41,227 nt of DNA from Phycisphaerales bacterium. GTDB lineage: Bacteria; Planctomycetota; Phycisphaerae; Phycisphaerales; UBA1924. The stretch lies in contig RECZ01000127.1 in NCBI GenBank assembly GCA_007693765.1, positions 1 through 41,227 on the forward strand. The letters run 5' to 3'. The position numbers and the translations under genes were made by a program. Positions within the stretch are counted from its first letter, which is position 1, and each line of letters opens with the position of its first letter. The notes beneath the pieces were generated by a model. It was not told where the DNA came from and searched no databases. It was given only the letters and a program-made list of their open reading frames with translations. Positions 39,036 to 41,227 of this stretch are shown here, piece by piece.

Positions 39036-39611
39036 TCAGCTCGCGCCGACGGTCAGCCCGACGACGGGCTGGGGCCGCACATCGTGCGTCGGCTGGATCG
39101 CGATTTTCAGGGGAACGCGCTTGCCGTCCGGGCCCTTTGGCGGGATGCCGTCCTGGTCGACGATGCGCTGGATCGCCATCACGCCCTCGATGAGCATCTC
39201 GGGGCGAGGCGGGCAGCCGGGGACGTACACATCCACGGGGATGAACTGGTCCACGCCCTGCACGACCGCGTAGGTGTCGAACACGCCGCCGGTCGAGGCG
39301 CACGCGCCCATCGAGATCACCCACTTGGGCTCGGTCATCTGCTGGTAGATGCGCTGCAGCACCGGCATCGTCTTGATGGAGACGCGCCCCGCGACGATGA
39401 GCAGGTCCGACTGGCGGGGCGAGAACCGCATGACCTCCGCGCCGAAGCGGGCGAGGTCGAACCGCGAGGAGGCCGTGGCCATCAGCTCGATGCCGCAGCA
39501 CGCGGTCGCGAAGGGCATCGGCCACAGCGAGGAGCGGCGCGACCAGTTGATGACCTTCTGGAGCTGCGTCGTGAGGAACCCGTCGACAGGAATGGCGGCT
39601 TCGATGCCCAT
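39036..39611 (-). CDS. nuoB: NADH-quinone oxidoreductase subunit B
   Basis: Complex-I subunit that carries cluster N2, the last iron-sulfur cluster before quinone; 191 residues. The four ligands are in place: C38 and C39 ([11 protein letters not shown]), C104 (SMGACAS) and C133 ([10 protein letters not shown]). Length is normal and the reading frame is unbroken. GGAG lies ten bases before ATG 39611. The usual neighbours nuoA and nuoC are absent on both sides: the adjacent genes are a coiled-coil protein downstream and, across a REP array, the RAYT gene upstream. nuoB is therefore alone here. Confidence 0.95.
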
Positions 39612-39750
39612 GCGGAAACGGCTCCATGCCGGTGGTGGTCGGGTGGTCGGCGGACGCCCGCGAGAACGGGCCGCCCGGGGGTGTTCGGCGTGATTGTAGG
39701 GGGGATTCAGCGGGCGTGGGAACGGGGAGCACGCGGCCGACCTCGGCCCG

Positions 39751-39906
39751 ATCGCGATTCCGCCCCGCAGGGGCGCAGGGCCCTAGCCGTGGGCATATCA
39801 CAGCGCCGCCCACGGAACGATCGTCCCCATCGCGATTCCGCCCCGAAGGGGCGCAGGGCCCTAGCCGTGGGCGAAGCGCAGCGCCGCCCACGGAAAGCGG
39901 TCCTCC
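39751..39906 (-). repeat. Two tandem 78-bp REP units (copies C1, C2), inverted relative to copies A and B
   Basis: Units at 39751-39828 and 39829-39906 share the words ATCGCGATTCCGCCCC, GGGGCGCAGGGCCCTAGCC and the CCGTGGGC/GCCCACGG stem. They differ mainly in the hairpin loop (39795-39803 versus the matching part of the second unit) and at the 3' end. Read on the minus strand they match copies A (232-345) and B (40502-40593). A further GC hairpin (GCCGCCC/GGGCGGC) follows at about 39914-39932. Confidence 0.8.
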
Positions 39907-39975
39907 AACCGGCGCCGCCCTGAAGGGGCGGCGGAACGCACACCCCAACCCCCGGATCAACGACGACACATCATG

Positions 39976-39981
39976 TACAAT
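39976..39981 (+). promoter_or_regulatory. -10-like TACAAT, probable leaderless promoter of the RAYT gene
   Basis: TACAAT, one mismatch from TATAAT, with six bases to the ATG at 39988. The in-frame ATG at 39973 lies within this box, which favours 39988. Confidence 0.55.
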
Positions 39982-39987
39982 CCCCGC

Positions 39988-40440
39988 ATGTCCGGGACAT
40001 ACACGCGCATCGTGTACCACGCGGTCTTCAGCACCAAACGCCGCACGCCCTGGATCACTCCCGAACTGCGCGACCGGCTGCATCCATACATGGGCGGCGT
40101 GATCCGCAACGAGGGCGGGAGCCTCATCATCGCAGGAGGCATGCCGGACCATGTGCACCTGCTCGTGAAGTGGCGCGCCGATGCGCCCTTCGCGGGGCTG
40201 ATGCGCACGGTGAAATCCCGTTCGTCCCGCTGGGTGCACGAGACATTCCCTGAGCGCTCCGATTTCGCGTGGCAGGACGGGTACAGCGCCTTCACCGTCA
40301 GCCGGTCGCAGGAAAGCGTTGTGCAACGGTACATCGAGCGTCAGGAAGAGCATCACCGTGTGCGTACGTTTCAGGAGGAAATCGTCGAGTTCCTCCGATC
40401 GCACGGCGTGGAGTATGACGAGCGGTACATCTTGGGGTGA
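39988..40440 (+). CDS. REP-associated tyrosine transposase (RAYT, IS200-like TnpA)
   Basis: Y1-type HUH single-strand nuclease of 150 residues. The HUH pair is H55 and H57 in GGMPDHVHLLVKW, and the catalytic tyrosine is Y115 in VVQRYIERQEEHH. The C-terminus HGVEYDERYILG is typical for this group. The ORF is intact and the active-site residues are present. RAYTs are domesticated relatives of IS200/IS605 transposases that act on REP hairpins; here REP copies lie on both sides in opposite orientations (39751-39906 and 40502-40593). No IS ends, direct repeats or second gene (tnpB) are seen, so it is a RAYT rather than an insertion sequence. Confidence 0.9.
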   Translation: MSGTYTRIVYHAVFSTKRRTPWITPELRDRLHPYMGGVIRNEGGSLIIAGGMPDHVHLLVKWRADAPFAGLMRTVKSRSSRWVHETFPERSDFAWQDGYSAFTVSRSQESVVQRYIERQEEHHRVRTFQEEIVEFLRSHGVEYDERYILG

Positions 40441-40501
40441 ATGGTGTTTGTGTTGATGTGTTCCGTGGTTGGCGATGCGAGTTGCTCGTGGCGAGGTTCC
40501 T

Positions 40502-40593
40502 TCGCCCCTTCAGAGCGAGATCGTGTGTGATGGCTTCTCCGTGGGCGGCGCTGCGCTTCGCCCACGGCTACGTTCTTGCGCCCCTTCGGGGCG
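40502..40593 (+). repeat. REP-like hairpin array next to RAYT (copy B)
   Basis: Same order as copy A: the region matching CGCCCCTT/AGAGCGAG, then CCGTGGGCG/CGCCCACGG (40539-40547/40559-40567), then CGCCCC/GGGGCG (40579-40584/40588-40593). It starts 61 bp after the RAYT stop and ends eight bases before the mfd stop, so it may also serve as a 3' end hairpin for both genes. Confidence 0.8.
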
Positions 40594-40600
40594 GGTCGCG

Positions 40601-41227
40601 TCACAGCATCGCTGCGCGTCGGGACGCCGCGGCGCCGAGTCGGGTTCGGAGGACGCGCAGCAGCGTCTCGGGCTCCAGGTAGTTGGCGGGGGGGCGGTAG
40701 TAGACCTCGACGAGGCCGGATGTGTCCCCCGGCGCCGCCTTGAGCACGCGCACCGTTCCCTTCGCCTCCGCGAGCGCGTCGCGCACGGCGTCCGCGTCCT
40801 CGCACCGGTGCACCACGTCCTGCTCGTGCACCGCGACGCTCCGGATCAGCAGGCGGTTGGCGTGGATGCGCAGCTCGGCGAGTTCGAGCAGGCGGCGTGT
40901 GGGGGCGGGGGGGTCGCCGTAGGCGTCCTTGAGGTCGCTCTCGACCGCGCGCAGCTCCTCGACGGACGCCGCCCGGGCGACGCGTCGGTACGCCTCCATG
41001 CGGCGCGCGTCGGAGGGGATGTACGCCTTGGGGACGATGCCGGTCGCGCCGATGTCGATCGTCGTCTCGACGGGGTCGAGGATGCGCTCGTGGTTCAGTT
41101 CGCGCACGGCGCGGTCGAGCAGGCGGCAGTACATGTCGTAGCCCACCGCCGCGATGTGCCCGGACTGCTCCGCGCCGAGGAGGTTGCCGGCGCCGCGGAT
41201 CTCGAGGTCGCGCATGGCGATCTTGAA
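40601..41227 (-). CDS. mfd: Transcription-repair coupling factor, C-terminal part (cut by window end)
   Basis: The 3' end of a gene that continues beyond base 41227. The visible 208 residues begin in the RecG-like helicase region (FKIAMRDLEIRGAGNLLGAE, then QSGHIAAVGYDMYCRLLDRA), which is diagnostic of Mfd, followed by the C-terminal TRCF domain (ILDPVETTIDIGATGIVPKA, AYRRVARAASVEEL and AYGDPPAPTRRLLELAELRI). Mfd removes stalled RNA polymerase and recruits UvrA. The reading frame is intact up to TGA at 40601-40603, next to REP copy B. Confidence 0.9.
   Translation of the reverse strand, partial: FKIAMRDLEIRGAGNLLGAEQSGHIAAVGYDMYCRLLDRAVRELNHERILDPVETTIDIGATGIVPKAYIPSDARRMEAYRRVARAASVEELRAVESDLKDAYGDPPAPTRRLLELAELRIHANRLLIRSVAVHEQDVVHRCEDADAVRDALAEAKGTVRVLKAAPGDTSGLVEVYYRPPANYLEPETLLRVLRTRLGAAASRRAAML

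Follow-up and report, generated by a model that had tools for sequence, protein, structure and literature searches.

At 39988–40440 on the plus strand, the window (the whole stretch of 41,227 nucleotides analysed here) carries a gene for a Y1 (HUH/tyrosine) transposase of 150 amino acids, whose start codon was chosen among alternative starts. Its upstream neighbour is a nuoB-like gene on the minus strand (39036–39611; Oxidored_q6), and to the right lies a TRCF-domain gene, by name mfd (40601–41227, minus), the end of which faces the transposase gene. The original prediction that two tandem units on the left and an inverted unit on the right frame the gene was borne out: a direct repeat of 75 nt, 91% identical and with a start-to-start distance of 78, occupies 39743–39817 and 39821–39895, and an inverted copy of 57 nt, 93% complementary, spans the gene (39838–39894 and 40538–40594).

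While these repeats are real, the unit has more parts than had been described. Comparison with relatives shows that, going 5' to 3' toward the gene, it opens with a small hairpin whose loop is GNA (as C-GNA-G) or GNNA; about 10 nt follow, the last four of them forming an NTAG foot, and the large perfect hairpin begins right after the TAG. Some 25 nt of spacer separate this hairpin from another small one, and an inverted copy lies across the gene. In the window the order is small-large-small-large-small, gene, then inverted small-large-small. The outer left unit (all left-hand features being on the plus strand) consists of a small hairpin with a GCA loop (39760–39775, from repeat family D4 and the sequence), a CTAG foot (39783–39786, from the sequence) and a large hairpin (39787–39815, from a hairpin pattern search). 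It is followed by the inner left unit, with a GAA-looped small hairpin (39838–39853, family D4), a second CTAG foot (39861–39864, from the sequence and the unit alignment described below) and a large hairpin (39865–39893, pattern search), and by the left-hand small hairpin closest to the gene (39915–39930, family D4). On the right, on the minus strand, the small hairpin closest to the gene has one stem mismatch (40503–40517, from inverted repeat I6 and the unit alignment); beyond it come the large hairpin (40539–40567, found by repeat and hairpin pattern searches), a GTAG foot that reads CTAC on the plus strand (40568–40571, from the sequence and the unit alignment) and an outer small hairpin (40579–40593), which stops 7 bases from the end of the TRCF-domain gene. 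The three feet, CTAG, CTAG and GTAG, compare with the GT[AG]G that defines the 5' foot of the palindrome in REPs and REPINs. Besides the three units at the gene, which had been counted correctly, the window holds one more of the same family, gene-less and near the contig end (232–322, minus; 61.3 bits, E 3.5e-10). A different dispersed repeat, based on CTCTCCC...GGGAGAGG, adjoins several units, at 1–200 of the window, at the start of contig C174 and on contigs C105, C61 and C106; identical bases open contigs C163 and C174.

The 150-residue protein has Y1_Tnp as its sole Pfam domain (E 1.7e-27). Its HUH motif and tyrosine are intact, as had been claimed: DHVH and a tyrosine at residue 115 are present, and these positions are invariant in the family alignment except for D54, which is nearly so. 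The enzyme may be active, as was also proposed. The same prediction took the enzyme for a RAYT with its own REPs, and here a HUH/Y1 transposase, inverted self-matched REP-like hairpins and dispersed copies were indeed found, but the sequence class is a different one. When the window protein's own scores were compared with the NCBIfam cut-offs, it failed the RAYT model NF047646 (30.4 bits against 80) and passed the IS200/IS605 model transpos_IS200 (75.9 bits against 55). At E 0.001, all 43 members of alignment A2 matched the IS200 model and 34 of the 43 the RAYT model, so the two families are related. At the catalytic tyrosine the protein reads YIERQEEHH, that is Y---Q--HH, whereas class 2 (RAYT/TnpAREP) proteins carry Y---NP (PMC6006769, in its account of the class signatures); this signature and the failed RAYT model rule out a typical class 2 RAYT. 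A TIRYT (subclass 2.1, a class 2 core with a C-terminal helix-turn-helix) was likewise rejected, given a protein of 150 amino acids with Y1_Tnp alone and a class 1 signature.

TnpAY1 subclass 1.2 is defined by Y---Q--HH together with WQ and DH[IV]H, in the passages of Quentin et al. 2018 (PMC6006769) that deal with it. All three motifs and the length of the protein agree with these criteria, and we file the window protein under subclass 1.2 by this signature (DHVH, WQ, YIERQEEHH). Among 110 homologous loci, made up of the best 80 of 293 and 30 more, all 110 carried WQ, 101 carried Y---Q--HH and 102 carried [DN]H[VIL]H. A search of the PDB with the family profile matched eight distinct sequences, ISDra2 and IS608 included, with the RAYT 4er8 absent from the eight. 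In a fold search with the structure model (pLDDT 89.8), ISDra2 came top (E 6e-9), with the RAYT 4er8 of E. coli in thirtieth place (1.4e-4, 12% identity).

The same anatomy recurs around the genes of relatives. The flanks were compared at 105 of the 110 loci, leaving aside L081, L082 and L096 (duplicate proteins) and two loci with short flanks. In this sample (from the best 80 of 293 plus 30), the left flank matched the reverse complement of the right with a score of at least 20 at 78 of 105 loci, compared with 40 of 1,050 swapped flank pairs and 0 of 59 pairs taken 1.4 kb away; 27 of the 105 scored under 20. Since swapping the flanks largely abolishes the match, most genes have matched hairpins of their own. 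On the gene-facing strand of the 105 test loci we counted 188 small hairpins with GNA or GNNA loops to the left and 186 to the right, against 43 and 49 with the complementary loops; the flanks of the 59 control loci gave 1 and 2, and complementary loops 5 and 4. Hairpins with a T[AT]G foot lay on the gene-facing strand to the left at 66, to the right at 57 and on both sides at 49 of the 105 loci (again from the best 80 of 293 plus 30), compared with 13 and 8 on the opposite strand and with 4 and 3 of 59 control flanks, and two other feet that were tried gave 5 to 8 of 105. The 123 feet counted in these loci were GTAG (53), GTTG (31), ATAG (14), TTAG (13), CTAG (6) and others (6).

For an alignment of the unit we required a perfect stem of at least 7, a T[AT]G foot and a small hairpin on either side, which gave 58 units from 41 loci. 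Seven were dropped by hand (L032 right, L051 both, L063, L069 both and L079), and the remaining 51 were aligned with two from the window. In this alignment the large hairpin was 98.8% paired, with 85 cells changed on both sides, a covariation that is partly there by construction because the units had been selected for perfect stem, foot and small hairpins.

Outside the planctomycetes the arrangement varied. Among eight Bacteroidota loci inspected, GNA/GNNA hairpins were found on both sides at three, on one side at four and on neither at one, and a convincing footed large hairpin at none of the eight; of all 21 loci inspected outside the planctomycetes, three (L055, L083 and L093) had no GNA/GNNA small hairpin on either side. 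At L087 and L094 (Bacteroidota) and at L077 and L105 (Acidobacteria), GNA/GNNA small hairpins lie 7–17 bp from both gene ends. A footed large hairpin was looked for at L087, L094 and L105 and none was found; the arrangement at these three loci is perhaps a minimal form of the unit. At three further loci from three species, L184 (about 953–1334), L194 and L200, a repeat pair sits within an open reading frame, between two CPxCG (zinc-ribbon-like) motifs; two fixed words there are spaced by 372, 372 and 336, all multiples of three, and the frame stays open.

Turning to the window's own genome, a draft of 176 contigs, the unit model R1 found at least 24 units at E 0.01, copy numbers here being lower bounds throughout. 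A pattern for the whole hairpin, CCGTGGGCN{6,20}GCCCACGG, occurred at 18 sites in the 2.9-Mb genome, compared with 0 for the same pattern written backwards. The idea that these are chance hairpins in GC-rich DNA draws on the nine-base core: it occurs eight times in the window against 2.6 expected, a number equalled in 1 of 100 shuffles, and such mild enrichment makes the core on its own weak evidence. The 18 sites against none, and the flank matches at 78 loci against the few among swapped and none among distant flanks, exclude this explanation, which we regard as extremely improbable. A simple gene caller based on codon usage placed no gene over 12 of 13 repeat loci and a weak call over the remaining one. 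Several gene-less units form inverted, REPIN-like pairs of about 260–300 bp, on contigs C34, C61, C106, C122 and C30. A single close copy of the transposase gene is present. Y1_Tnp matches in the genome number five in all, the four others (L024, L025, L026 and L027) being distant from the window gene and scoring 25–36 bits. The original prediction would have been weakened by few copies genome-wide, and the result falls halfway: 24 units are present rather than hundreds, where REPs and REPINs often exceed 100.

These counts bear on a second explanation, in which the locus is an ordinary IS200/IS605 insertion sequence whose gene and hairpin ends move together, the gene-less pairs being internal-deletion derivatives (MITEs). 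It would account for a protein that passes the NCBI IS200/IS605 model and has the ISDra2 and IS608 transposases as its nearest relatives, and for the absence of the gene-bearing form from one orthologous site. It sits badly with one close gene copy against 24 units, where IS200/IS605 elements (subclass 1.1) have multiple near-identical gene copies per genome, and with ends that are mirror-image, not asymmetric; in addition, the gene-bearing site is common to three species of one genus, and the middles of the gene-less pairs only weakly resemble the gene's flanks. With simple shuffles, the resemblance of the pair middle to the upstream flank reached p under 0.05 in two of eight elements, and that to the downstream flank, which was somewhat more alike, in seven of eight; some pairs (C34, C61 and C106) have their middles in common. 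We consider a plain insertion sequence unlikely.

Presence and absence were followed among five species of that one genus. The gene-bearing site of G055 is also occupied in two other species, G043 and G039; in G059 the two flanks stand 129 bp apart, compared with 832. Where G055 and G043 carry a gene-less pair, G039 has 91 bp compared with 436. The cleanest difference, at site B, is one extra 78-bp unit in G043 relative to G055 in a context 84–93% identical, and it could equally be a tandem duplication; the larger difference at site A may be recombination between repeats, and all three species compared are filled at site C. Two sites show a clear absence, and exact filled/empty junctions, sought throughout the five-species genus, were not found, the boundaries being blurred because the intergenic DNA is too diverged. 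These differences demonstrate gain or loss while the species diverged, rather than transposition by this enzyme.

Gene and unit also occur together across genomes. In a sample of 61 genomes, the window's own and 60 relatives, the gene was present at E 1e-10 in 22. R1 matches were found in all 22 of these, the window's own included, compared with 9 of the 39 others (Fisher 1.2e-9, a value that is indicative only because the genomes are related and many are incomplete). Copies are thus far from equally frequent in genomes lacking the gene, the outcome that would have spoken against the original prediction. The median number of matches was 19.5 with the gene and 0 without it, where the maximum was 9 (all lower bounds). 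When a replicated genus was reduced to one genome, R1 was still found in 18 of 18 gene-bearing genomes. R1 was built partly from units of some of the tested genomes; the window's own unit, searched as DNA, was found in 12 of the 22 gene-bearing genomes and 3 of the 39 others. Units outnumber genes in G051, with at least 75 R1 matches against six gene-hit rows, and contig C2 of this genome holds a tandem unit array with a 72-bp period (about 431954–432329). Six of the genomes that hold units and lack the gene were searched again with the family profile, which gave weak matches in G008 and G017 and no match in G014, G018, G044 and G046, so units can persist without the gene.

Many of the relatives' units are a motif already on record, Rfam's Acido-Lenti-1 (RF01687). 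In 20 chosen relatives' loci the model gave 25 matches above its cut-off, at 10 of the 20 loci, and none lay further than about 550 bp from the transposase gene. Eighteen of the 25 had the expected orientation (minus on the left, plus on the right); the other seven were at L102 (four), L083 (two) and L091 (one). Among the 61 genomes, RF01687 was found in 11 of the 22 gene-bearing ones (the window's own not being among the 11) and in 0 of 39 others, and among 199 planctomycete genomes in 40 of 44 with the gene compared with 10 of 155 without (Fisher 6.6e-28, once more indicative only); control genomes gave 0 of 14. In the ten RF01687 genomes called gene-less, a profile search recovered gene fragments in G110 and G180, weak matches in G070, G098 and G208, and none in five. 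The four genomes with the gene and without RF01687 are the window's own, G165, G223 and G225. In the window the best score is 25.7 bits, sub-threshold against a gathering score of 37 (E 0.0018 in 1.1 kb), at 40561–40593 in the right unit and on the strand complementary to the footed one; at E 0.001 the window's genome gave no match. In G051, a neighbour within 500 bp lies on the same strand for 28 of the 51 RF01687 matches and on the opposite strand for 2 of 51; at this threshold, then, inverted pairing is not a general feature. G070 has 16 matches, some forming opposite-strand pairs about 150 bp apart, and the profile search of this genome for a close transposase gene gave weak matches only. 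Some Acido-Lenti-1 copies reportedly lie near group II introns.

A third explanation is that the hairpins act as RNA, whether as terminators, mRNA stabilisers or a real Acido-Lenti-1 small RNA, with the transposase as passenger or target. Rfam files the motif as an sRNA, Weinberg et al. 2010 (PMC2864571) describe it as a likely RNA, and a 2026 paper (PMC13298647) still treats it as little known. The units are intergenic, one hairpin stands directly behind a neighbouring gene, and the unit folds better than its shuffles as RNA (z −3.65) and as DNA (z −2.98). With the energy tables used, the DNA and RNA folding energies of the small hairpin and its complement did not separate the strands. C-GNA-G loops are very stable in DNA, and the GNA loops fit a role in single-stranded DNA. 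The strong tie to one transposase family speaks against an RNA function, as do the mirror-image placing and the gene-specific matching, neither of which an RNA role predicts. We hold this explanation to be distinctly improbable as the main one; a side role of the unit as RNA would be compatible with the mirror-image placing and the transposase association. The association suggests instead that what is filed as Acido-Lenti-1 'RNA' is in fact a mobile DNA on which the transposase acts. We lean, by a modest margin of belief, towards a more specific proposal: that Acido-Lenti-1 is a single-stranded-DNA REP rather than an RNA gene, belonging to a separate, multi-phylum class of REPtrons of subclass 1.2, in which GNA-loop minihairpins on both sides of a GTAG-type REP form part of the recognition code.

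Taken together, the locus is probably REPtron-like: its Y1 transposase belongs, by signature, to TnpAY1 subclass 1.2 and has a repeat family of its own, and the gene-less units are REPIN-like. This reading builds on what was observed, namely the anatomy, the left-right matching, the genome-wide copies, the association with the gene, the presence/absence between species and the identity of many units with Acido-Lenti-1. Known HUH/Y1 enzymes (PMC8266576 and PMC6006769, in their accounts of mechanism) provide the analogy for single-strand binding, cutting, movement by the enzyme and the role of each hairpin. By that analogy, the hairpins would fold on single-stranded DNA, such as the lagging-strand template, and the transposase would bind them in their folded form; its tyrosine would then cut next to a unit at a site that the foot helps to select. 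Units, or inverted pairs of them, would be moved or copied in this way, the gene mostly staying put. The gene-less units in intergenic DNA, several of them inverted pairs, would then behave as non-autonomous elements (REPINs). Against the REPtron-like reading stand the loci under the flank threshold (27/105), a copy number low for a REP, the unit holders in which no gene was matched (G014, G018, G044 and G046), the score of the window unit below the Rfam cut-off together with the lack of RF01687 matches in its genome at E 0.001, the failure to find exact junctions, and the predominance of same-strand neighbours among the RF01687 matches of G051. Because every gene comes with hairpins matched to it, exchanging enzymes and repeats offers a direct test of specificity.

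Links of Acido-Lenti-1 or of subclass 1.2 to REPs were looked for in the open-access literature (supplements aside) and none was found. As far as searched, therefore, REP-like units for subclass 1.2, the three-hairpin unit across phyla and the identity of Acido-Lenti-1 are new. REPs with tyrosine transposases are already known, planctomycetes included: in the portions of PMC3733652 concerned with them, GTAG repeats and many tyrosine transposases with flanking repeats are noted in R. baltica, so that the original description of such systems as less described in planctomycetes needs tempering. The GTAG-23 repeats of T. roseum, in the same portions, resemble the present units in lying within small palindromes with loops of 3–4, and neither these nor the R. 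baltica repeats are tied there to subclass 1.2 or Acido-Lenti-1.

The comparison with Acido-Lenti-1 itself is close, many relatives' units exceeding the gathering score in gene-bearing genomes; the window copy differs in having a longer large hairpin and a score below the cut-off, and the strand chosen by Rfam is complementary to the one with the foot. If the proposed identity is true, an orphan Rfam family gains a function. ISDra2 and IS608 are the closest solved structures by sequence and fold, but elements of this type are mobile genes in high copy whose hairpins are small and subterminal, and they lack terminal inverted repeats (PMC6006769 and PMC2817692, where these elements are described). 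With RAYT/TnpAREP (class 2) REPtrons, as characterised in the corresponding part of PMC6006769, the locus shares an enzyme of the HUH/Y1 kind, palindromes in inverted orientation on its two flanks, a GTAG-type foot, one gene copy or a few, dispersed gene-less copies and a repeat specific to each gene; unlike them, it has a class 1 protein of subclass 1.2, a less strict foot (NT[AT]G) and small GNA/GNNA hairpins flanking the REP, and its copies in the window's genome number in the tens, not the hundreds. With subclass 1.2, as set out in the same paper, it agrees in length (150 against a median of 148 amino acids), in WQ, DH[IV]H and Y---Q--HH, and in low copy number. That subclass was published, in those passages, as being without REPs and mostly from Cyanobacteria and Bacteroidetes, whereas the genes described here carry REP-like units and are common in planctomycetes. 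If our reading is true, the published statement will have to be amended, and subclass 1.2 would be one more lineage showing coevolution of a Y1 enzyme with its hairpin substrates.
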